From a virus, in IMG/VR virus record IMGVR_UViG_3300050821_005225, positions 1 to 30,393 of that record: DNA of 30,393 bases; one strand, written 5' to 3'. A program made the translations under genes and the position numbers. Position 1 is the first letter of the stretch; each line of letters opens with the position of its first letter. Positions 7,877-29,770 of the stretch are shown piece after piece. The notes beneath the pieces are model-generated. The model saw nothing but the letters and a program-made list of their open reading frames with translations, made no database searches and was not told the origin of the DNA.

Positions 7877-8211
7877 GGTGCTGCCCCAGAGCCGACAGGC
7901 ACATCCAATTGGACGCTCTGTTCATTGGTGACGCCGTCCAGGATCAGCGTGGCCTGTCCGTCAGCGCCGCGTTGCAATTGCACGCCGGTCAAGGCAATGC
8001 GACGCTCCCAGCGCAGCACAGCGTAAGCCGTGGCGGCATAGATGCGCAGCACCGTGGCGCCATTCAAGGGTTGGTCGATCAGTTCCGGCACTTCCGAACC
8101 ATAGTCGCGGCGCATGACGCGAGAACCGATAGGCGTGGTGAGAATGTCGGCTAAGGACTGGCGGATGTGTGCAAGCCGAGACATGGTGCGGCCGGTACGG
8201 GCGTTCATCAT
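7873..8211 (-). CDS. W: Baseplate protein W (GPW/gp25 family)
   Basis: 112 residues with the core GPW/gp25 signature: SLADILTTPIGSRVMRRDYGS (about residues 15-35), then PELIDQPLN and the RWERRI segment. The family resembles T4 gp25 and is a wedge component linked to sheath initiation. Two adjacent ATGs exist (8211 and 8208); the first overlaps the stop of V. Coupled to V and J by four-base overlaps. Confidence 0.95.
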   Translation of the reverse strand: MMNARTGRTMSRLAHIRQSLADILTTPIGSRVMRRDYGSEVPELIDQPLNGATVLRIYAATAYAVLRWERRIALTGVQLQRGADGQATLILDGVTNEQSVQLDVPVGSGAAP

Positions 8212-8873
8212 TTCGGACCACCTGTATCGTCGTCGCCCTTCTTCACGCCGCTATGCGGGTGCTTGACCAGGCTGATGCCGGCAGCGACCACGTCCATGGT
8301 GGCTTGAATGATGCCTTGCACCACGGCGGCGGGGCCGCCAGCCTTACCGGCTTGGACGTTCATGCCGGCATTCAGCGCAGACATACCGTTGACGGTCAGG
8401 TTCTTGTTGACGACCAGATTCTTTTGCACCAGCAGGTTGCCGGTGCATTCCGTATCTTCGGCGTTCGAGGTGACTTTACCTGGTGCGAGTGTGACGCTGG
8501 TGCCATCCGGCAGCGTGGCCGTCAACGTATGCGTTGCACTGTCGTACTGGACCACGGTCCCGTCCACGTAGCGGGTCGTATGGTGTGCGGGATTGGTTGA
8601 CGGCGATTTGTATTTATCGGAATAGATCGCCGGCAGGATCGCGGCATTGGCGAAATCGCCCTCGGGCGACAACACTATGACCTGTTCGCCCAGTGAGGGT
8701 GGAAACCAGGTCTGTGAATCGCCGGCCCGTAACGTGATCCAGGGGCGCCATGTGGTGACGTTCTCGCCAACCTTGACGCGCACGCGCTGGGTGTCGTGAT
8801 TGATGTCGGCAATGGTGCCGAATCGAATCAGATTCAGGATTAAGCGCAGCAGGTCGGAGTAGTCGGCAGTCAT
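8208..8873 (-). CDS. V: Baseplate assembly/spike protein V
   Basis: 221 residues from the ATG at 8873; an ATG three codons upstream (8882) is equally plausible and neither has a strong ribosome site. The N-terminus (LLRLILNLIRFGTIADI) and the WRPWITLRAGDSQTWFPPSL and GEQVIVLSPEGD blocks match P2 gpV, the membrane-piercing tail spike. The middle is a beta-helix-like stretch; the C-terminus ends in HPHSG...DTGGPK, resembling the tip that binds metal in P2-type spikes. This gene starts the V-W-J-I-H-G operon. Its promoter must lie in the 8.9-9.1 kb gap because the accessory cassette upstream runs the opposite way. Confidence 0.93.
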   Translation of the reverse strand: MTADYSDLLRLILNLIRFGTIADINHDTQRVRVKVGENVTTWRPWITLRAGDSQTWFPPSLGEQVIVLSPEGDFANAAILPAIYSDKYKSPSTNPAHHTTRYVDGTVVQYDSATHTLTATLPDGTSVTLAPGKVTSNAEDTECTGNLLVQKNLVVNKNLTVNGMSALNAGMNVQAGKAGGPAAVVQGIIQATMDVVAAGISLVKHPHSGVKKGDDDTGGPK

Positions 8874-9004
8874 GCGTTGCATGTTGCCGCGTCGCCGGAA
8901 TCGGCGCACCTGGTAGCGGGTTGATATGAGGCATACCAACTGCTGGAGGATGTTTTGTTGCGAGGTGGCGTACTACAGTGCCGGTCTGGAAAAAAGAACG
9001 CGGC

Positions 9005-9038
9005 GACGTGGTCAGTGCTTGTAACACTCGCCCACGTC
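9005..9038. repeat. Nested inverted repeat between V and com
   Basis: Outer arms GACGTGG (9005-9011) and CCACGTC (9032-9038) enclose inner arms AGTG (9014-9017) and CACT (9025-9028). No T-tract follows, so it is not a classical terminator. It may be an operator or activator site for the divergent V and com transcripts. Confidence 0.5.
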
Positions 9039-9081: not shown

Positions 9082-9095
9082 CACCTGTACAGGTG
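9082..9095. promoter_or_regulatory. 14-bp perfect palindrome upstream of com
   Basis: CACCTGTACAGGTG is perfectly symmetric and lies about 37 bp before the com start. A possible -10 (TATCAT, 9106-9111) places the -35 region at 9083-9088, inside the palindrome, so a dimeric regulator bound here would interfere with RNA polymerase. Promoter identity is inferred; the palindrome is seen directly. Confidence 0.5.
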
Positions 9096-9131: not shown

Positions 9132-9344
9132 ATGCAGGAAATCCGTTGTGGGAATTGTTCCCGAAAGCTTGGGCAAGGTGAATACATCACCCTGTCCATC
9201 AAATGCCCGCGTTGCGGCACATTAAATCATCTGAGAGCCACGCGCCCCATACCCGCATGCCATCGAGCATCTGACTATGGAGCAGTACGTGCAAGCAAGT
9301 CCGATCATTCCTTGGATGGGTGGCAAACGCCGCCTAGCCGATAA
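9132..9344 (+). CDS. com: Com-like zinc-finger translational regulator
   Basis: 70 residues from the ATG at 9132. The N-terminal 30 residues, MQEIRCGNCSRKL then LSIKCPRCG, carry two CxxC pairs (C6/C9 and C25/C28). They match the pattern of phage Mu Com, a small zinc protein that binds mom mRNA and opens a hairpin covering the mom ribosome site. The C-terminal 35 residues are unrelated-looking and overlap the methylase start by 68 bp, the same kind of overlap seen for com/mom in Mu. The methylase ATG has only a weak ribosome site, which fits activation by Com. That it regulates the methylase here is inference; the family assignment is firm. Confidence 0.85.
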   Translation: MQEIRCGNCSRKLGQGEYITLSIKCPRCGTLNHLRATRPIPACHRASDYGAVRASKSDHSLDGWQTPPSR

Positions 9345-10083
9345 ACTCATCCCCATATTTCCGCCGCATGAATGCTATGTCGAGGTGTTCTGTGGTGGCG
9401 CCGCACTGTATTTCTTGCGGCCGGTGCCGGCGCGTGTCGAGGTCATCAACGACATCAACGGCGAACTGGTCAACCTATATCGAGTCGTGCAGCATCACAT
9501 GGCGGAGTTCGTGCGACAGTTCGAATGGGTGATCAGCAGCCGCGAGCTATTCAAATGGTATCAGGATGCGCGGCTGGAAACCTTGACCGACATCCAACGC
9601 GCCGCCCGTTTTTATTATCTGCAGCAGCACGCATTTAGCGGCAAGGTCGCCGGGCAGAATTTCGGCACCGCGACCACCGCGCCGGCCATCGATCTCAGTC
9701 GAATTGAAGAAAATCTGAATGCGGCACGATTGCGCCTGGCCGGTACCTATGTCGAAAACCTGCCCTGGTTGGAATGCATGAAGCGCTATGACCGGGAGCA
9801 CACATTCTTTTACTTGGACCCGCCGTATTGGCAGATGGCTGGCTATGGCGTGGATTTTGGGATCGAGCATTATGAACAGATGGCCGAATTCATGCGGACG
9901 TGCAAAGGCAAAGTCATGGTCAGCATCAACGACCATCCGGATATTCGCAGGGTGTTCGAAGGTTTTACGATGATGGGACTGGATATCAAATATAGCATCG
10001 GCAGCACGCATGGCCAGCCCGTGGTCAGTAAGGAGTTGGTCATTACCAACTGGGATGCTGCTGTTGTGACGCAACTATTTTGA
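9277..10083 (+). CDS. D12-class DNA adenine methyltransferase (Dam-like)
   Basis: 268 residues. The N-terminus has PIIPWMGGKRRL (the WxGGK motif at 13-17), the SAM-binding motif I YVEVFCGGAAL (34-44), and the catalytic DPPY motif at 181-184 within FFYLDPPYW. These three mark the MethyltransfD12 family, which methylates N6 of adenine, often in GATC. The later VMVSINDHPDIRRVFEGF segment is also typical. It is preceded by and overlaps com. It likely protects phage or host DNA from restriction or modulates gene expression; no cognate nuclease is adjacent, although the ATPase gene 190 bp downstream runs the same way. GC-rich codon use resembles the phage backbone, unlike the downstream ATPase. Confidence 0.92.
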   Translation: MEQYVQASPIIPWMGGKRRLADKLIPIFPPHECYVEVFCGGAALYFLRPVPARVEVINDINGELVNLYRVVQHHMAEFVRQFEWVISSRELFKWYQDARLETLTDIQRAARFYYLQQHAFSGKVAGQNFGTATTAPAIDLSRIEENLNAARLRLAGTYVENLPWLECMKRYDREHTFFYLDPPYWQMAGYGVDFGIEHYEQMAEFMRTCKGKVMVSINDHPDIRRVFEGFTMMGLDIKYSIGSTHGQPVVSKELVITNWDAAVVTQLF

Positions 10084-10166
10084 TGTTGATTTGATATGTC
10101 ATAAGTTGCATGAATCGTTATTTCATAGAAACGTTAGTAATTATTGTAAATATTGAATGATTGTCT

Positions 10167-10195
10167 TGTGGAATGAAAAATTGCTAACTACTATG
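10167..10195 (+). promoter_or_regulatory. Possible promoter of the RloC-like ATPase gene
   Basis: The 192-bp gap 10084-10275 is strikingly AT-rich. TTGTGG (10167-10172) and TACTAT (10190-10195) are separated by 17 bp, a weak sigma70-like match. A clear ribosome site, AGGGGG at 10263-10268, precedes the ATG at 10276. The rest of the gap shows no gene and no hairpin I can support. Confidence 0.3.
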
Positions 10196-10275
10196 AATGC
10201 TGCCAATTCGGCATCTTGGGCAAATAGGTGTTTTTAAGAACGTAAAAATCGGCACACCAATAAGGGGGAAATGAA

Positions 10276-12897
10276 ATGGAAGCTCCTGCTGTTGCAATGG
10301 CACATGATTTACCTGATGCATTTGAGCTCTGGCTTGGAGAGCGCCCCAGATGGCTACAGACTGCCGCTAGAAATTTGATCGACACGAAGCACATGCCGAG
10401 TGAGGACGAGATTAGTTTGCTTGTGGATTTGTGCAAAGGCGAGGCTGCTAGCACAAAGGGCTTAGTGTTTGCAGCACCTCAGCCCGGATCGTTGGTTGGT
10501 GCATCAGCGAGGCCACGTTTGCGAATTGCCGGATTGTCTAATGTGAGTGGTGTAAATGCAATCAAGGAAGGGGCCGACTTAACTTTCGGTGATGCAAATA
10601 TTACCGTGATTTATGGTCCCAACGGTTCGGGGAAAACCGGCTTCGCTCGCTTGCTAAAACATGCGTGCAATTCTCGCGCTAAAGAAGAGATATTTTCAAA
10701 CGTATTTGAAGACGCAAAAAAAACGTCGACCGCAAAGATTCATGTTCTATTAGGGAAGGAGGAGCACGTCCTTGATTGGAGCCATAATGGTCCAATTATT
10801 AAACAACTGCGCGACGTTCACATCTTTGATTCGAAATCAGCCAGTATGTATGTCGGGATGAAAAATGAGGCAACCTATGAACCACGTAGGATGCGATTTT
10901 TGTCGGCTCTAATTACCATTTGCGATCATATCGCCGCTTGTATTGACGCTGACAAGCAAGCTCTTCAAAAGAAAATTCCAACTTTTCCCGTTGAGTTTAT
11001 GGGAACACTTTCTGCCAAATGGCTCAATGGATTGAAATCAAGCACGCCCTTGGTTGACGCCAATAAATTTTGCGATTATCCGAAAGAGCTTGATGATGAG
11101 CGAGTCGCATTGGAACATGCTCTTGCGCAGAAAGATATAGCGGCTAGGCTACAAGCAATTGCCAAAAGCACCGCCACATTGTCACAAGTTAAGACTAGTT
11201 TCGCATCGCTAAAAGCTGCGCTGAGTGACAATCAACTCGGGCAAATCGCAAGTGCTCGACTTGACGCCAAAACAAAACGAAAAACCGCAACGGAAGACGC
11301 CGCCAAAGTATTCGCTCAAGCACCTCTGGGCGGCGTAGGTCAGCCATCATGGATGGCGCTTTGGGAGCAAGCAAGGAAATATTCTGAGTCGCATGCATAC
11401 TCTGGAACATCGTTTCCAGTAGTCCAGGATGGTAGCTTGTGCGTCCTCTGTCAACAGGAGTTAAATGTTGACGGGAAACAGCGCCTTTCCCATTTTGAGG
11501 CTTTTGTAAAAGGTGGTTTGGAAGCAGAAGCTAAAGCAGCAGAAAATAGGTTATTGGAACTATGTAAAAAATTACCGACTCTTCCTCAGTTGCCTGGCTG
11601 GATGGTTCAAACAGATTTTTTGAAGGTAGATGAGGGAGAAGCAAAACTGAATTTTGCGTCCCTCCAGGCTCGTCGTGTCGCCGCTGATAGTGCAGTGCAA
11701 ATGGATGAGATTCCCCACTTCGAATGGGCGCAGCTTGAGCAAGCGATTACGACGCAGGAACAGGCTAATGCGAGCGAAGAGAAGGCCCTGAAAGAATTGC
11801 AGAGTGATGGTAAGCGTAAAGAGAAGGAAACCAGGGTTGTGGAACTTAAGGCGACTCAGTGGCTAAACCAAAACAAGCAGTCGATCATTGACGAGATCTC
11901 GCGCTTAAGTGCGTTGGCAATATTAGACAAAGCATCTGCTTTGACGAAAACAAATGCACTTACTACAAAAAAGAATGAGCTTGCGAAACAGGAGGTTGAT
12001 GCTGGCTATCAAACTCGCTTTTCACAAGAGATTGAGTCACTTGGTGGAAAGCGAATCAAGGTTAAGCCGGAGAGCAAACAAGAAGGAAAAGGCAGGATTA
12101 GTTTCGGATTGTCTTTGCAAGGTATCAAGAAGCAGGCAAAGGCAGGCGAAATATTAAGCGAAGGGGAAACTCGTATCGTGGCGTTGTCCGCTTTCCTTGC
12201 TGATATAACCGGATCTGGAGAACCTACCCCTTTTATATTTGACGATCCTATTTCGTCGCTGGATCAGGATTTTGAAGAGCGGGTTGTCACTCGCCTTGTA
12301 GAGTTGTCAAAAAATCGGCAAGTGGTGGTCTTTACGCATAGACTCTCATTGTTGACTCTCATTGAAACGGCTGTAGGTCGTTTAGAGCAGCAGGCGAAGC
12401 TCGAACAAGTTCCTCCACCCGTGACCGTAAATGTGAAGGCACTGCGTTGCTTAGGCAATGCTGTAGGAATTACGCATCAACTAAATATGCGCGAAGCGAA
12501 GCCCCAAAAAGCCGCAAATAGATTGCGGGATGAGACCATTCCACAGTTGCGTAAGCTGATTGAACAAAACGATATTGAGTCATATGACGATAGGGCAAAA
12601 AGCGTCTGTAGCGATTTTCGGATTTTGGTGGAGCGTTGTGTCGAGAAAATTCTGTTTAATGATGTTCTACAACGATTCCGACGCTCTGTTGAGACTAAAG
12701 GGAAAATTGGCGCACTGGCGAAAATCACTACAGACGATTGTGCTTTTATCGATGATCTTATGACGCGCTATTCTGCTTTTGAGCATTCTCAGCCTGATGA
12801 ATTGCCGGCAAAGTTACCAGAGATCGATGATCTACAGGCCGATGTCGAAAAGCTAGCTACATGGATCGCAGATTTCGAAAAACGTGCGATTGTCTAG
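10276..12897 (+). CDS. Rad50/RloC-like ABC ATPase, probable anti-phage effector
   Basis: 873 residues. After an approximately 100-residue N-terminal region comes Walker A, GPNGSGKT (114-121). A long helical section follows with a central CVLC pair (C389/C392), as in the zinc hooks of Rad50 and RloC. The ABC signature (LSEGE, 627-631), Walker B FIFDDPISSLD (653-663) and switch histidine (H688 in VVVFTHR) complete the split ATPase. The C-terminal 160 residues contain R782-x3-E786 and H837, reminiscent of the Arg-Glu-His triad of PrrC/RloC anticodon nucleases; this is my inference. Such proteins sense phage DNA disturbance and cut tRNA. Codon use is visibly AT-richer than the tail genes on both sides, suggesting separate acquisition. 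It sits at the orf30 position of P2. Alternatives: another AAA_13-type defence ATPase without tRNase activity. Confidence 0.75.
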   Translation: MEAPAVAMAHDLPDAFELWLGERPRWLQTAARNLIDTKHMPSEDEISLLVDLCKGEAASTKGLVFAAPQPGSLVGASARPRLRIAGLSNVSGVNAIKEGADLTFGDANITVIYGPNGSGKTGFARLLKHACNSRAKEEIFSNVFEDAKKTSTAKIHVLLGKEEHVLDWSHNGPIIKQLRDVHIFDSKSASMYVGMKNEATYEPRRMRFLSALITICDHIAACIDADKQALQKKIPTFPVEFMGTLSAKWLNGLKSSTPLVDANKFCDYPKELDDERVALEHALAQKDIAARLQAIAKSTATLSQVKTSFASLKAALSDNQLGQIASARLDAKTKRKTATEDAAKVFAQAPLGGVGQPSWMALWEQARKYSESHAYSGTSFPVVQDGSLCVLCQQELNVDGKQRLSHFEAFVKGGLEAEAKAAENRLLELCKKLPTLPQLPGWMVQTDFLKVDEGEAKLNFASLQARRVAADSAVQMDEIPHFEWAQLEQAITTQEQANASEEKALKELQSDGKRKEKETRVVELKATQWLNQNKQSIIDEISRLSALAILDKASALTKTNALTTKKNELAKQEVDAGYQTRFSQEIESLGGKRIKVKPESKQEGKGRISFGLSLQGIKKQAKAGEILSEGETRIVALSAFLADITGSGEPTPFIFDDPISSLDQDFEERVVTRLVELSKNRQVVVFTHRLSLLTLIETAVGRLEQQAKLEQVPPPVTVNVKALRCLGNAVGITHQLNMREAKPQKAANRLRDETIPQLRKLIEQNDIESYDDRAKSVCSDFRILVERCVEKILFNDVLQRFRRSVETKGKIGALAKITTDDCAFIDDLMTRYSAFEHSQPDELPAKLPEIDDLQADVEKLATWIADFEKRAIV

Positions 12898-12952: not shown

Positions 12953-13420
12953 TCAAAAATTGGCAAAGTGCCGCAGCATGGAATCGCGAATTAATGCTTG
13001 ATCGGTCGCACTGAATCCAAGTAAGGGCCGGGCCGGATAGCGATATTCCGGCCCTTTTTTTGCGACCTTGTCGGTCAATCCTTCCTGGTGCACGCGGGCA
13101 ATCCGCGCCGCACGCCCGAAGAAACCGACCGATAGCTGGTTTTCGTCCTGCTCTATCTTGAGATTTTTTTGTGTGCGGATCTTCTCAAACATCGCCGCTT
13201 TCTGCCGTTTGATCCTTCCTTTTTTACCGCGTAGGTTCTTGCGCTGCTTACGCGCCGCGTAGGGCGCGCCGTCCGGCGCCTGTTGGCTGGCGATACGTTG
13301 CGCCTGGCTGCGGCGCAAGTCCTGCGCAATGCGGCGTGTGATGATTCTGCGCTGACCAGGTTGCAGCTGGGCCAGCAGTGCGCCGGCCCAGGCTTCGAGG
13401 GTAGATAGATCGTCGCTCAT
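12953..13420 (-). CDS. S: Tail completion / virion morphogenesis protein S
   Basis: 155 residues from the ATG at 13420, chosen because it overlaps the R stop as ATGA; the frame is open eight codons further up. Features of the phage virion morphogenesis family include an early LEAWAGALLAQLQPGQRR helix, the basic ARKQRKNLRGKKGRIKRQKA stretch and the C-terminal YRYPARPLLGFSATDQ motif, all conserved in P2 gpS-like proteins. It acts in tail completion together with R. It is the last gene of the minus-strand O-to-S operon; only 55 bp separate it from the convergent ATPase gene. Confidence 0.92.
   Translation of the reverse strand: MSDDLSTLEAWAGALLAQLQPGQRRIITRRIAQDLRRSQAQRIASQQAPDGAPYAARKQRKNLRGKKGRIKRQKAAMFEKIRTQKNLKIEQDENQLSVGFFGRAARIARVHQEGLTDKVAKKGPEYRYPARPLLGFSATDQALIRDSMLRHFANF
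13025..13061 (+). terminator. Rho-independent terminator for the accessory cassette, inside gene S
   Basis: On the plus strand GGGCCGG (13030-13036; an alternative arm at 13025-13031) pairs with CCGGCCC (13048-13054), followed immediately by seven T (13055-13061). This is about 130 bp past the ATPase stop. It would stop rightward cassette transcription before it opposes the lysis/head operon, although it is encoded within the antisense of S codons reading KKGPEYRYPARP. Confidence 0.75.
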
Positions 13421-13905
13421 TCGGGATTGGCCGGCGTATGCCACTCGGCCAGCAGCGTGTCGCCCGCATAGGCTTGCCAGAATTCGTCGGTGAATGCCGG
13501 CGAGGGTTGCGGTTCGGCCAGGTGCGTGACTTCTAGTCGACCGGCACCAGCCGGCTTCACCACGACGCGCTCAGTGAGCGCCAACGTGATGGCCAGATCT
13601 ATCGATGTGTGGTTGTTGTAATCTACATCAAAGCCGATACCGGTCTTGCGCGACTCGGCATTGTCCAGCAAGTCGCGCTGGTGTATTTGCACCCAGGCGA
13701 GTAACGGGACCATGAGCGCATCCTCGCTGCCGCTATAGTCGGTAATGATGATATTGAGCTTATAGCGATATTCAAAGGACAGGGAGGCGGTGCCGGTCGC
13801 CACCGTGTTGCCGCTCTCCGCAAAGATCAGCAATTTGTCGGGATTCTGTCGCAACTCGGCGCTGACCGCCGTCAGATGCGCTCTAAGGCTTCTTGGCTTG
13901 TACAC
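13417..13905 (-). CDS. R: Tail completion protein R
   Basis: 162 residues starting at a GTG (13905): MYKPRSLRAHLTAVSAELRQ. This start is chosen because an AGGAGG ribosome site lies nine bases upstream and because P2 gpR begins with a similar MLKP-SLR sequence; an ATG at 13914 directly abuts that ribosome site. Internal FEYRYKLNIIITDYSG and VPLLAWVQ blocks are typical of P2 phage tail completion protein R. The gene overlaps the 3' end of the Rz1-like gene by 23 bp and S by four bases. Confidence 0.92.
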   Translation of the reverse strand: MYKPRSLRAHLTAVSAELRQNPDKLLIFAESGNTVATGTASLSFEYRYKLNIIITDYSGSEDALMVPLLAWVQIHQRDLLDNAESRKTGIGFDVDYNNHTSIDLAITLALTERVVVKPAGAGRLEVTHLAEPQPSPAFTDEFWQAYAGDTLLAEWHTPANPE

Positions 13906-24237: not shown

Positions 24238-27200
24238 TCATTCGACCATTTCTTCCGCCTCAACCGTCGGCAATGTCGAATCCGCCCCCTCGATCATAGC
24301 GATCTCGCTCGGAGAAAGCTCGTAGAGCTGATATAGATGGTCGTTTATTGCGCGTTCGTACTTTTCAATATCAGCACTATGATTTTCCTCTTTTCGCTGC
24401 AATATTTTTTCCACCGCAACAATTATCGGGCGCATCTTTTTGCGACTTAATGGCAGGGGAATGGAATTGATCATATCTTTTGTAAATGTCACGCCCCCAT
24501 TGTAACTAGCTGACCCGTACTTAGCTTTGACATAGAAAATCGCAATCGGGCTATTCAGGATAGCAGAAACGTACTTGAGAACGTCATCGTCCTGTGATGT
24601 AAGCACAAGTGTAGTTTTTCCTGGAATCATTTCACCGCGAAGATCGAGCGTAGCGTCCAAGAGAGTTAGTCCCTTCACTATGATTTTCTTTGCGTCGCTC
24701 TTCAGCTTATACGTATTCGTGAAATAGGCGGCGAAATCGTCGCGGCTAACCATTGGTCTCAAGTATTTGCTCTTAAGATAGGTCATTGGTTTCATGCCCC
24801 ACCGTGACACGTACTTTCCTAACGTCCCGGTATTAACCACCAAGTACTGTTTCTTCGCATTAAATTTTGCAGTAATGTCGGCTACGAAAGGCTTTAGCTT
24901 GTATGCATCGGCTGTTGCGCATGCACTTTCACACTGAATAATATCTCTGATACGACCATGTTTTTTGTCGAGTTTGCAAACGAAATCGTAATGCACCGAT
25001 AGCAGTGGATCTAAAAAATATGGAGGTTCTATTTCCGTTTTTGAAACCTGATTAAGTTGAATCAAGCTACCACCTTGGAATGCTGCGGTGGATATGTTGG
25101 TGGTAGGAAGCTTTGAGACCTGCGTGATGATTGAATCCACTATAGCGCTCTCAAAAACGTCTCTTCCAAGCATGACTACCGTTTCTATCCCTCCAATGTG
25201 CTGCATTCGAAATTCATTACCGAAAGGTTTCGATATCCATTTGTCGGGTGTAATAAAAGTCATGGTCCCTGTCTGCTTCAACAATTTCAGGCCAAGTTCC
25301 ATGAATACAATATACAAGTCCCAGTTCCCCTTTGCGCAGGAATAGGTTTCTGTCAAATGTTGACGAATGTCTCCATGCCCATCATTCAACATTTTTTCTG
25401 AATCTATATATGGAGGATTAGCGATTACTGCATCAAAACCGACAAACTCACCGCCGTCGTCCAGAACCTCAGGAAATTCGAAACGCCACTCAAAAGCGTC
25501 TTCATAAATTTTACTGATCTTGATAGCTTCGATTTGTTTTTCCAACTTCTCAATAGCAATACGCAGGGACTCCAGTTCTGCCTTACGGGTCGCTTTCTCT
25601 TTAGCACTTTCCTCGAAAAGAGATTGCTGTCCTTTTCTTGCGTTGAACTTGTCTCTCGAAGTATTTAATCTCCGCACTACAGGGTCATTGTTCTGAATTT
25701 CCTGGCGAAAACTTTTTTTCGTTTCATCTATGAGCTGTTCCATCTTCCGCTTTTCCGACTTACTCTTGGCATCTCTATATGTTGAAACTGCCAATTGATA
25801 GTCTTTAAGTGTTCGCCCACTTTTCTTCAGCGCTGACTTCAAATCCTCTTCTAAGCCAAATCGACTAATAGTTGAGTTTCCCTTTTTGATATTTATGTCG
25901 ATATTAGGAAGGGTCTCAAGATTACCGTTTGCATCGTAATAGGCATTTTTCAATAGTTCAATCCATAGACGCAACCTACAAATTTTTACGGAATTTTGAT
26001 TGATGTCCACTCCAAACAAGCAGTTTTCAATGACTGTTTGCTTTTCATGAAATAGTGCTTCCTGGATGCGCTGACTTTCTTTGCTTGCCGGTTTGTATTC
26101 CAGCAATTCGCCATCTTCGTCGCTCACTATCAGCTCATCACCAATTACCTCAATTTGATATTCCTTTAGTCTCTTCCCGGATCTATCTAACAGCACGAGA
26201 AGGTCATTCTTGAGAGATATAATTTCGTTTAGAGCGGAAACGAGAAAGTGACCAGAGCCGACAGCTGGATCACAGATTCTAAGACTATTAATTATTGTAT
26301 TTGCTTCCTTTTTGTCTGTAATTTTTTCGTATAAATCTTCTACCGACTTGCAGTCCCAATTTTTGACTTCATTAAATTTTTGAATCGCTGCTTTTCTGAT
26401 TGTCTCTCGGCACATATGCATCGTTACGAAGCCAGGCGTGAAAAAAGAACCATCTTTGTAGCCGTTGATTTTTTCGAAAATCAGACCTAATACTGAAGCA
26501 TTAATTAGCCTCTTGTTCTCTTCTTGAATTTGTCCTGCAGTGTCTGCTGAGAAGTCAAATGCACTTAGGAAATCAAGTATGTATTGCAGTGGACTTAAGT
26601 ATCCCTTGAGTTTTTCTCCAGAAGAGTCTTTAAGAACGGTCGTTTTGAGTACTCTAATTTTCCTATCGCCAGACAGATTACTAATTGGGATGGCTTCGTG
26701 TTCCAATTCTGTTGGCTCGAATAGCGAACTGTTCAAGTAAGGGACACGCGGGAATTGCCGCTGTATTTCCGGATCACGATCTGCCGGACGGCGAGCTAAT
26801 ACCTCGAAAAATAACTCATTGAGTCCAGCGAAACTTTTCACTTTTTCGCTATTCAAAAAAGCTAAATCTTTGTCGCCCTTATGGAAAGCGAGGAGCTGCG
26901 CTTCTAAGAGCTTAAGAAACAAAATCCGATTGATCCAGGTAATTGACAATTCAAGCGAGACGTTGAATAGTTGGTCATCTCTGGTCAAGCCGTAATTTTT
27001 AAAATTCTGAATTCGCTCAAGCTTTTCCAAGGCGTCGATCTGATACATCGCATTCTCAACCAGTGAACCGCTATCTCGCTCTTTTCCGGTCCGTCTCACG
27101 ATCAATTCTTTTCCGCCAACTTGTACCTCAACTAAACCGATGATGTGGAGAAGTTCGGTATAAAACCCTTTGTCTAGGCGATTACTGTCGTTGTTAATTT

Positions 27201-27915
27201 GCTGCTTCAGTAGATGCTTCGGGGAAAGCAGCTTAAATAAAGAAATTAGTTGAGCATCGTCATTTTGCGAGTCACTACGCAATGCTTGCTCGTAATCTCG
27301 GATGTCGAAATAGGTGTACTCAATTTCGCTTTCGATGGCTTTTATTGCTGGCGCAGCGATCTCGCGATAAAAGAACGGCGTTCTTGTATCAACTAGCCCT
27401 TTTTTCACGAATTCTTTGAATTGATTCACGAAAAAAATATCTTGAGCAAAATGGCGCTCAAAAAATATGGCGTCAAAAATGAACCACTCATATATATTTG
27501 TACAGATGAGGTATTTGATCTCGATATTTTTCGAGATGAAGCGCTCACGCATGTAGTACCACACCAGCTCCTGGAATCCCTTGGAATTCAAGGTCGACTG
27601 AGATGGCATTTCAGCGGTGTTGGTGGGCTTCTTGGCCTCAATGATAATGCCGACATGGTCTTGTGCATTTGGCCCAAGGTGTATCACCAGGTCGTTGCGC
27701 CCTTTGGTATTGATGAAATTGGTTTGCCCGTAGTAAGTCTTCTTGAGGAAATCCGCTGCCAGATTTTTATGGAACTCTTCAGATTCATGATCGTTTGAGC
27801 GATCAAGCAACTCAACTAAGTTGCTTTTGAAGGCCTCGATCTCGCTCCGCGCAGGCCTCATTTTCAGAAATGCTTTATTTAACGCCTTTTTAGGTGTCAG
27901 CTTTTTCTCATTCAT
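24238..27915 (-). CDS. Type IIG (Eco57I-like) restriction-modification enzyme
   Basis: 1225 residues. The N-terminus carries a PD-(D/E)xK-like nuclease pattern: D75 in GRNDLVIHL and E93-x-K95 in IIIEAKK. The methyltransferase core has SAM motif I CDPAVGSGHF (548-557) and catalytic IANPPYID (NPPY at 833-836), marking N6-adenine methylation. A lysine/glutamate-rich coiled coil spans about 700-800, and the C-terminal 380 residues form a TaqI_C-like specificity region (GGVTFTKDMINSIPLPLS). One polypeptide thus methylates and cuts. The gene is AT-rich and far larger than backbone genes, a typical transferred defence module. The ribosome site is GAGG upstream of the ATG. Related single-chain methylase-only enzymes exist, but the intact nuclease residues favour restriction. 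Confidence 0.85.
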   Translation of the reverse strand: MNEKKLTPKKALNKAFLKMRPARSEIEAFKSNLVELLDRSNDHESEEFHKNLAADFLKKTYYGQTNFINTKGRNDLVIHLGPNAQDHVGIIIEAKKPTNTAEMPSQSTLNSKGFQELVWYYMRERFISKNIEIKYLICTNIYEWFIFDAIFFERHFAQDIFFVNQFKEFVKKGLVDTRTPFFYREIAAPAIKAIESEIEYTYFDIRDYEQALRSDSQNDDAQLISLFKLLSPKHLLKQQINNDSNRLDKGFYTELLHIIGLVEVQVGGKELIVRRTGKERDSGSLVENAMYQIDALEKLERIQNFKNYGLTRDDQLFNVSLELSITWINRILFLKLLEAQLLAFHKGDKDLAFLNSEKVKSFAGLNELFFEVLARRPADRDPEIQRQFPRVPYLNSSLFEPTELEHEAIPISNLSGDRKIRVLKTTVLKDSSGEKLKGYLSPLQYILDFLSAFDFSADTAGQIQEENKRLINASVLGLIFEKINGYKDGSFFTPGFVTMHMCRETIRKAAIQKFNEVKNWDCKSVEDLYEKITDKKEANTIINSLRICDPAVGSGHFLVSALNEIISLKNDLLVLLDRSGKRLKEYQIEVIGDELIVSDEDGELLEYKPASKESQRIQEALFHEKQTVIENCLFGVDINQNSVKICRLRLWIELLKNAYYDANGNLETLPNIDINIKKGNSTISRFGLEEDLKSALKKSGRTLKDYQLAVSTYRDAKSKSEKRKMEQLIDETKKSFRQEIQNNDPVVRRLNTSRDKFNARKGQQSLFEESAKEKATRKAELESLRIAIEKLEKQIEAIKISKIYEDAFEWRFEFPEVLDDGGEFVGFDAVIANPPYIDSEKMLNDGHGDIRQHLTETYSCAKGNWDLYIVFMELGLKLLKQTGTMTFITPDKWISKPFGNEFRMQHIGGIETVVMLGRDVFESAIVDSIITQVSKLPTTNISTAAFQGGSLIQLNQVSKTEIEPPYFLDPLLSVHYDFVCKLDKKHGRIRDIIQCESACATADAYKLKPFVADITAKFNAKKQYLVVNTGTLGKYVSRWGMKPMTYLKSKYLRPMVSRDDFAAYFTNTYKLKSDAKKIIVKGLTLLDATLDLRGEMIPGKTTLVLTSQDDDVLKYVSAILNSPIAIFYVKAKYGSASYNGGVTFTKDMINSIPLPLSRKKMRPIIVAVEKILQRKEENHSADIEKYERAINDHLYQLYELSPSEIAMIEGADSTLPTVEAEEMVE

Positions 27916-28406: not shown

Positions 28407-29009
28407 TCAATCATCAGTTGGCAGTGCGGCAGGCGGATGCGGCTTATTTTCCGCCTGATGTTTTTCCCCAGGATCTGAACCAGGGGAGGGGAGCGCCATA
28501 GCGCCTTGATCTTCCTCGACTTCATTTGCAAAATCGATATTAATCTGTTTGGTTTTTAAAGGAATCTCAGTCGATCGTATTGCATCAATGCCTAATCTAG
28601 TTGCCTCGGCAATCATGTTGTCATCATCCGTATAAATTATTTTTACACCGTGCTGGCGCGCGATAGCAAGAATTTGACGATCAACCTTAATTTGTTGCCA
28701 AGGAGCCTTGGAATGTCCCTTTTTTTTGCCGGTGTTGATTGCACCACGATGGATAAATGCTGCTTCAAAAGCTGATGCTTCATCAAACGGAAGTATCCGT
28801 ATAGCGCTACGTTTTCTCATCAACGAAATGATGCCTGACGTAGCAATATCAGTCCCACACAAAACCTCAGCCCAAGCTGGTGCGGGAACACCGATTGCCG
28901 TTTTTGATTTGACTAAATCCTGAATTAATCCTTCGAGTCGTTCGTAAAGTACACTTGAATCTTTTTCGGTGGCGAGCGTTATAAATATATTTGCGTCAAA
29001 AAAAATCAT
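28407..29009 (-). CDS. PIN-domain nuclease (VapC-like), 200 aa
   Basis: The first 150 residues form a PIN fold. Acidic residues are in the expected order: D5 in FFDANIF, E48 in AWAEVL, D110 in KVDRQILAIA and D128-D130 in YTDDDNM. These bind metal and cut RNA in VapC toxins. A proline/acid-rich tail (about 165-200) is unusual for VapC and may be an interaction tail. The ATG overlaps the stop of the 246-aa gene by four bases, so the two are co-translated. The upstream partner is far larger than a VapB antitoxin and unrelated in sequence, so this may not be a classical toxin-antitoxin pair. Confidence 0.8.
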   Translation of the reverse strand: MIFFDANIFITLATEKDSSVLYERLEGLIQDLVKSKTAIGVPAPAWAEVLCGTDIATSGIISLMRKRSAIRILPFDEASAFEAAFIHRGAINTGKKKGHSKAPWQQIKVDRQILAIARQHGVKIIYTDDDNMIAEATRLGIDAIRSTEIPLKTKQINIDFANEVEEDQGAMALPSPGSDPGEKHQAENKPHPPAALPTDD

Positions 29010-29746
29010 TCAAGGCCTCGTAACTTTCTCCATTCCTCTATCGGGAATTCCATGCTTCCCCAGCCATTGTTGGACACACTCTTGAAGTCGGCCAGTATTT
29101 CGTCTAATGGCGTGGTATCTAGTTCTTCATACGATTGAATAGTAAGCAGCTGGATTTCCCAAGTACCATCTCCATGCCGGACCCACTTGCCCGATCCATG
29201 TGCTCTAATCGGATTGCCTAGGTAGTGGCGCGACAATTCTTTGGCGTAGGCTTCACCGCGAATTTCGCAGCGAATAACCTTACCCTCTTGATCTCTGAGA
29301 TGAACAGGAATGGTGGCATCCTTGCCACCAATTTTAATAACGACACCATCAACGGTAGTAGGTTGGATGATCGTCACTGTTTCTTGAATTGCTAGTTTCC
29401 GGCCGAGAAATTCGAGAATTTTCCCGCCCTTTTTTCCTGTGCTAATTGTTCCAACCGCGTTATCAGCTCTCAGTAGGTTGTCTAAGGTCTGATAAGCTCT
29501 TTGTGCATCTTGTACAGCGGATGCGCTATTTACACTTTGCAGACGCCACATAACTTTTGGCACGGCTGGCTCATCAATAGAAACATTCAGCTTGGCACTG
29601 CCTTTTGTAATGCTGTCAAAATGCACAGACTCCTCGCTGCCGTACAGGGCAGCGAGATTGGATAGGTATTCAGCCAGACGAGCCATCGGCAGGCTCTCAG
29701 GGGTATAGCTATCAATTCTGAATGTTAGCTTTTCTTTAATGTCCAT
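29006..29746 (-). CDS. Unknown 246-aa partner of the PIN protein
   Basis: Starts at ATG 29746 (an upstream GTG at 29758 lacks a ribosome site), with GAGG about 11 bases before. MDIKEKLTFRIDSYTPESLP opens an alpha/beta region with a helical MARLAEYLSNLAALYG segment. Residues 120-200 look beta-rich (VDGVVIKIGGKDATIPVHL, then GSGKWVRHGDGTWEIQLLTI), possibly an OB-like or double-psi-like domain. I recognise no family. It is co-translated with the PIN protein and has a consensus -10 in front. It could be an antitoxin, a sensor or a nucleic-acid-binding regulator of the nuclease. Confidence 0.7.
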   Translation of the reverse strand: MDIKEKLTFRIDSYTPESLPMARLAEYLSNLAALYGSEESVHFDSITKGSAKLNVSIDEPAVPKVMWRLQSVNSASAVQDAQRAYQTLDNLLRADNAVGTISTGKKGGKILEFLGRKLAIQETVTIIQPTTVDGVVIKIGGKDATIPVHLRDQEGKVIRCEIRGEAYAKELSRHYLGNPIRAHGSGKWVRHGDGTWEIQLLTIQSYEELDTTPLDEILADFKSVSNNGWGSMEFPIEEWRKLRGLE

Positions 29747-29770
29747 AGTGTATTGCACCTCATAAATGCC

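Follow-up and report, generated by a model that had tools for sequence, protein, structure and literature searches.

We analysed a 30,393-base virus record (IMG/VR record IMGVR_UViG_3300050821_005225, in full length, here called the window), in which three plus-strand genes of a P2-like phage lie between the minus-strand tail genes V and S. These are com, for a small zinc-ribbon regulator, a dam-like methylase gene (dam) that overlaps com, and a gene for a zinc-hook ABC ATPase that resembles the anticodon nuclease RloC (Table 1). An earlier note, made from the letters of this DNA, had described the same layout, with a Mu-type Com ahead of a Dam-like methylase and an RloC-like ATPase about 190 base pairs (bp) further on, and our analysis confirmed it. 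The note had also read the three genes as one defence/counter-defence unit, and this part was not upheld. We consider it probable that two independently acquired cargoes, a com-dam switch and the RloC-like ATPase, share the V-S slot.

Table 1. Features at the V-S slot of the window.
Feature	Position	Strand	Basis
Tail gene V, left slot border	8208..8939	-	TIGR01644, 153.8 bits
com, Mu-type Com zinc-ribbon translational regulator, 70 residues	9132..9344	+	PF10122 and phrog_6417
Predicted Com target hairpin in the 3' coding end of com	9257..9270	+	Stem as in the Mu site; covariation and codons in relatives
dam-like adenine methylase, D12 class	9277..10083	+	PF02086, 89.2 bits
Gap between dam and ATPase gene, 192 bp, AT-rich	10084..10275	+	Com-type hairpin not found
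RloC-like ABC ATPase with zinc hook and predicted C-terminal anticodon-nuclease domain, 873 residues	10276..12897	+	PDC-S06 (PDLC04893), motifs, models
Tail gene S, right slot border	12953..13444	-	TIGR01635, 107.1 bits

Cargo of the V-S slot

The matches of V and S both exceeded the curated cut-offs. The com product matched its family model clearly (PF10122, Zn_ribbon_Com, 60.9 bits versus a cut-off of 22.9, E 7.8e-17) and matched phrog_6417 ('translational regulator'), which places it among the Com-family zinc ribbons. The dam product belongs to the D12 class (PF02086, MethyltransfD12, 89.2 bits versus 22, E 4.6e-25), while its score against the NCBIfam Dam model TIGR00571 (110.0 bits) stayed under the curated cut-off of 114.85. 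In the P2 record, orf30 is annotated as 'nonessential', is encoded on the minus strand and adjoins V, to which it runs opposite. Passages of PMC3091744 place Orf30 between V and S in a table and name its position as one of three gene-acquisition places in P2-like phages. That is, the slot corresponds to the orf30 position, as the earlier note had proposed.

The variable cargo expected there was found when the V-S interval was compared across relatives. Among the best 80 of 564 viral-contig loci from a gpS scan, S and V were both present in 66, with a gap below 150 nucleotides (empty slot) in 26 and of at least 300 nucleotides in 40. In 21 of these 66 loci gpS was at least 70% identical, and all 21 slots were loaded (at least 1,064 nucleotides), 16 with com and 11 with dam; L013, with a partial com match and no methylase match, is counted among the slots and was missed by the com pattern used below. 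Three slots carried a C5 methylase (L017, L021 and L024), and in L015 an N4/N6 methylase came first. Further cargo comprised an OLD-family nuclease (L019), AbiTii (L024), an Mrr-type domain (L050), an SMC-like ATPase (L032) and a DUF6602 protein similar to NucC models (L056), among 20 slot payload proteins tested, ten of which were compared with PADLOC and seven of which had no Pfam family. From the base after the stop codon onward, no common sequence was apparent among 12 loci with a dam end. In the L005 and L010 slots, translations revealed extra stretches resembling the dam 3' end amid the cargo, perhaps scars of past cargo exchange. The place of com, dam and the ATPase gene within the tail region could speak for essential or late structural functions of the phage, an explanation so improbable as to be negligible given the 26 empty slots, the varying contents of the others and the nonessential P2 gene at the same place.

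A profile search for RloC-like genes yielded 26 viral loci, six of them (L205, L207-L211) with partial matches only. Four other P2-like contigs carried the gene between S and V (L196, L204, L201 and L206; in L201 on the opposite strand, as in the window). In L203, whose contig ends before any S, it lay about 2.5 kb from V, and in L199 it lay next to Q. These six loci and L189 matched PDC-S06, a candidate defence family in PADLOC, at E 2.4e-73 or better. In L206 (5956-8562) the gene is split into two overlapping frames and thus apparently inactivated. Since the window ATPase is only 20-22% identical to the proteins of L196, L201 and L204, and the L196 and L201 proteins are 79% alike but encoded in opposite orientation, RloC-like genes appear to have arrived repeatedly at one slot. 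Their presence between S and V in four other contigs argues for V-S as a recurrent defence site. With its OLD, AbiTii, Mrr-type and RloC-like genes, this interval is a place to seek defence genes besides the described cos-side hotspot of E. coli P2-like phages, which likewise holds variable anti-phage cargo at a fixed place, but between gpA and gpQ at cos according to the passages concerned (Rousset et al. 2022, PMC9122126).

Do the two cargoes work together? The genes adjoin on one strand, 192 bp apart, and both belong to defence-linked families, so that the methylase could mark the lysogen's DNA as self and the ATPase attack unmarked incoming DNA. We hold such a single integrated unit to be quite improbable. 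The window ATPase gene was matched in none of the 80 gpS loci, versus com in 16 and dam in 11 of the 21 close slots; related slots thus carry com-dam without this ATPase. Conversely, no com or dam match was seen in L196, L201, L203, L204 and L206, five P2-like contigs whose RloC-like gene lies within V-S or close to it. The guanine-cytosine (GC) content differs as well (0.46 for the ATPase gene, 0.54 for com-dam and 0.58 for the phage core), and a Com-type hairpin precedes dam only; before the ATPase gene it was sought and not found. Moreover, DNA-break inducers activate RloC in the published work (abstract of PMC3874168). Two separate acquisitions at the orf30 position account for these observations. 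It counts against this interpretation that the regions upstream of com and of the ATPase gene gave no plus-strand promoter-like site.

The predicted Com hairpin and the genes behind it

To our knowledge, mom of phage Mu is the one gene whose translation Com is known to activate. According to passages of PMC6483171, the motif recognised by Com is CC(N)2-3GAG within a hairpin loop, and the native 19-mer of mom, GAAUGCCUGCGAGCAUCCC, was bound by Com in an in vitro electrophoretic mobility shift assay; in these passages, RNA binding and translation activation by Com are shown for Mu only. The window contains a hairpin of this kind at 9257-9270, with the arms AUGC (9257-9260) and GCAU (9267-9270) around the loop CAUCGA (9261-9266). 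Its stem is the same as that of the Mu mom site (AUGC-CUGCGA-GCAU). The Mu hairpin sits within the 5' end of the mom open reading frame (ORF; annotation NC_000929), and the window hairpin ends six nucleotides ahead of the first possible dam start. With that start, ATG 9277, com and dam overlap by 68 nucleotides. ATG 9277 is missing in many relatives, while an in-frame GTG or ATG matching GTG 9289 is common to them; judged from these sequences, GTG 9289, with GGAG at 9279-9282, is the likelier dam start.

We then looked at other com loci. In all 16 loci obtained with a com pattern (15 slot contigs and the window), CC(N)3GAG was present at com nucleotide 128, and in the slot loci it precedes three unrelated methylase types. 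A wider com scan (80 best of 240 loci, on contigs partly shared with the gpS slot set) gave 62 representatives below 90% identity, including the window, after L126 (frame not found) and L171 (short) had been dropped. In the scored stretch, 51 of the 62 carried CC(N)3GAG and 56 carried CC(N)2-3GAG, while altered patterns scored 0 to 29 (29 for CC(N)2-3GCG), except GAG(N)2-3CC (47). A second CC(N)2-3GAG occurred about 22 nucleotides upstream of the main site, at com nucleotide 106, in 31 of the 62 representatives (L106-L185), which suggests tandem Com sites.

Could the hairpin be a by-product of coding? The site lies inside the com frame and residues such as ERxRAS recur, so that conserved C-terminal residues of Com, not selection on the RNA, might fix its letters. 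For 59 loci that could be anchored by protein alone (L148, L163 and L174 were not anchored), the two outer stem pairs formed in 111 of 118 cells (shuffles: mean 80.7, maximum 90). Covariation was analysed in 57 aligned sites, excluding L149 and L177, which the protein pattern had misplaced and which are kept in the counts of anchored loci. Stem cells paired in 98.7% (shuffled 84.3%), and 40 cells were changed on both sides versus 8.3 when shuffled, a number reached by none of 500 shuffles. The covariation score was 0.543 (0.235 shuffled, at most 0.149 when slid). The stems included ATGC/GCAT, AAGC/GCTT, GCGC/GCGC, GCAC/GTGC, AGGC/GCCT and TCGC/GCGA. In addition, the Arg or Gly codon of the site ended in A in 53 of 57 cases, a rare choice (background 12% and 11% in the ORFs behind com), and the hairpin is kept while the encoded residues differ, for example between L015 and L124. 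Together with the match to the Mu Com target, the compensated changes and the rare codon make a coding by-product very improbable. A predicted CC(N)2-3GAG target hairpin lies near the start of the overlapping gene in the window, with comparative support from relatives.

Named phages gave analogous results. We read 14 of 27 com-matching records plus Mu (the other 13 being seven duplicates and six different phages that were left out); the motif was present in 15 of 15, and a 4-bp stem (G-U allowed) in 14, with 2 bp in Chuche. In many of these loci a second hairpin was seen about 20 nucleotides upstream. In the Burkholderia P2-like phages KS5, AP3 and Mana (com with an N4/N6 methylase) and in Pseudomonas phage B3 (com with dam), com overlaps or nears the methylase gene and the hairpin is of the same kind as in the window. 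Their positions differ from the V-S slot: com of KS5, AP3 and Mana is encoded on the late strand, with the tail-fibre assembly gene on one side and FI on the other, and com of B3 stands among the tail genes. A literature search for a general Com hairpin, in a collection mostly without subscription journals, gave Mu work, genome reports and unrelated papers.

The locus resembles Mu com/mom in that the gene of a small Com zinc protein overlaps the modification gene that follows it, and in a near-identical target hairpin (AUGC-NNNNNN-GCAU), but differs in its payload, a D12 adenine methylase and not Mom, and in its place in a P2-like phage. By analogy with Mu, Com most likely activates translation of the methylase. 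It would bind the hairpin near the 3' end of its own coding sequence and open the ribosome site of the overlapping gene. Methylase synthesis would then await the appearance of Com, presumably late, and the enzyme could protect outgoing phage DNA from restriction. Several observations weigh against an RNA switch of this type. The window hairpin alone is not significant (three such hairpins versus 1.6 expected), and the 103-nucleotide dam leader shows no folding beyond that of shuffled sequences (z 0.63), a further difference from Mu that leaves an inhibitory structure like the Mu TIS unsupported. CC(N)2-3GAG is missing from the scored stretch of six of the 62 com loci, and two of the altered patterns are common too, CC(N)2-3GCG (29) and GAG(N)2-3CC (47), the latter being part of the published bipartite motif. 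One of the five covariation measures was weak, as three pairs changed on both sides and 34 of 500 shuffles reached that number. Finally, an older study cited in passages of PMC6483171 had found Com to bind duplex and not hairpin. The GATC count of the window (164 sites versus 168 expected from trinucleotides) is uninformative on GATC avoidance.

Which enzymes stand behind the hairpin? Among 60 ORFs behind com (L169 and L172, where the contigs end, were left out), Pfam assigned 35 to D12, 12 to N6/N4, four to C5 and two to Mom; there were also one GDSL hydrolase and one weak ABC match. Ahead of D12, N4/N6, C5 and Mom enzymes, four kinds unrelated to one another, the hairpin occupies the same com position and shows compensatory changes. 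Eighteen close loci (15 dam, 3 C5) aligned tightly through the hairpin and diverged directly behind it. At least nine changes of enzyme class were counted on a com-core tree (60 loci, 111 nucleotides, quick method, 53 labelled), which, being weakly resolved and without support values, gives only an indication of repeated class change. As it is com, rather than the enzyme gene, that contains the hairpin, one modification enzyme can take the place of another downstream of it, and these comparisons suggest that phages do swap the enzyme there. On balance, we lean towards Com with its embedded hairpin being a portable docking switch, in which enzymes would be exchanged by recombination just 3' of it, regulation would be kept and DNA marks would be rotated against host restriction. 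If true, this would explain how phages change their DNA modification without rebuilding its regulation. The covarying hairpin, present at dozens of com loci, suggests that several phage groups control DNA modification enzymes by a general RNA switch, one whose targets can be predicted. In Pseudomonas phage DVM-2008 (L223) there are two com-like genes, and the second, with two Com-type hairpins, precedes a colicin M-like gene; the Com switch may also drive such non-modification genes.

The RloC-like ATPase

The PDC-S06 model PDLC04893 covered nearly the whole ATPase (residues 13-871; model positions 5-860 of 862), with a score far above chance (1070 bits). According to passages of PMC2610378, RloC proteins, such as those of Geobacillus kaustophilus and Acinetobacter baylyi, combine ABC motifs, a CXXC zinc hook and Arg-X3-Glu-X36-52-His in 658-897 residues. 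The window protein shares the motifs and falls within this size range: its hook (C389/C392, CXXC) lies between long predicted helices, and its C-terminal R782-X3-E786-X50-H837 is within the published spacing. Unlike these proteins, it is phage-borne and known here from sequence criteria. Each of 19 aligned sequences (genomes, plasmids and the window) had the ABC motifs (Walker A, signature, Walker B and H-loop), the hook and R, E and H. A set of 17 sequences (viral contigs and the window) showed no variation at the hook cysteines or at R, E and H; R-E-H spacings in the 16 viral relatives ranged from 37 to 56.

An AlphaFold2 model (predicted local distance difference test, pLDDT, 83.7; predicted template modelling score, pTM, 0.58) revealed a head of the SMC/Rad50 fold (5h68_A: Z 21.1, root mean square deviation (rmsd) 3.9, 272 aligned; Rad50 3qku_A: Z 19.9, rmsd 4.9, 307 aligned). 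The C-terminal 140 residues modelled alone reached a pLDDT of 88.1. The RloC nuclease has been assigned to HEPN (passages of PMC3710099). For the window domain the top Foldseek match, a weak one, was a HEPN protein, 2hsb, and the HEPN toxin 7ae6_A aligned with Z 7.8 (rmsd 4.5, 115 aligned) among unrelated helical bundles.

From these sequence features and the model, the ATPase is probably a defensive anticodon nuclease, a candidate of the RloC type. Its Rad50/SMC-like ABC head and zinc-hook coiled coil would presumably sense DNA damage or phage DNA and turn on the C-terminal nuclease; the resulting stop of translation would abort the infection by competing phages. Nuclease activity and defence are extrapolated from RloC. 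Prophage-borne ABC-HEPN proteins, which likewise join an ABC ATPase to a nuclease domain, have already been proposed to exclude other phages; the relevant passages of that work (PMC3710099) do not describe the V-S slot or a com-dam neighbour. Not all evidence fits this assignment. The likeness to RloC follows published sequence criteria rather than a direct comparison with a characterised RloC sequence, and the R-E-H spacing of 56 in two of the 16 viral relatives exceeds the published 36-52. PDLC04893 also matched in nine of 14 control genomes, so that a match at E 0.001 alone is unspecific. The Foldseek match was weak (E 0.46), and since unrelated helical bundles score as well as the HEPN toxin or better (up to Z 9.4), the HEPN fold is suggestive only. 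A PDB sequence search with the C-terminal domain returned two unrelated matches (E 0.19 and 0.43), and no Pfam family was found for this domain.

The lack of a significant HEPN match, together with a head and coiled coil resembling SMC/Rad50, would suit an SbcC/Rad50-like repair or DNA-binding ATPase without nuclease, for example one aiding phage recombination. We regard this as unlikely, because the invariant C-terminal R, E and H fit the RloC triad and the gene is sporadic cargo from a PADLOC candidate defence family, with matches in 16 of 399 genomes of one order (E up to 1e-20). Named phages gave no match when searched with the ATPase alone, and viral contigs gave no relative. A transposon origin was also considered and dropped: direct repeats were sought around the gene, and none brackets it.

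Repeats and further cargo in the window

Between V and com, upstream of V and about 118 nucleotides before com, lies an inverted repeat (9014-9028). Its arms covary in relatives (CAATG/CATTG, ATTAGTG/CACTAAT, GGTCGGTG/CACCGACC), with at least 5 bp in nine of 16 loci and 4 bp in the window. A repeat that relatives carry upstream of V was sought in the window with two patterns, of which one gave 0 matches and the other 8 versus 6.7 expected. At 9084-9093, about 40 nucleotides before com, we noted the palindrome CCTGTACAGG, a possible operator or leader hairpin, in place of which other com loci have CCTGTGCACAGG or CCTGATCAGG. Between 8900 and 10400, Rfam gave no match up to E 1.

The AT-rich right end of the window forms a second cargo region (24238-27915 on the minus strand, 28407-29009, and 29006-29758 on the minus strand). 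It encodes a 1225-residue type IIG-like restriction-methylase (PADLOC REase_MTase_IIG, 745 bits), a PIN-domain protein and a member of a PHROG of unknown function.

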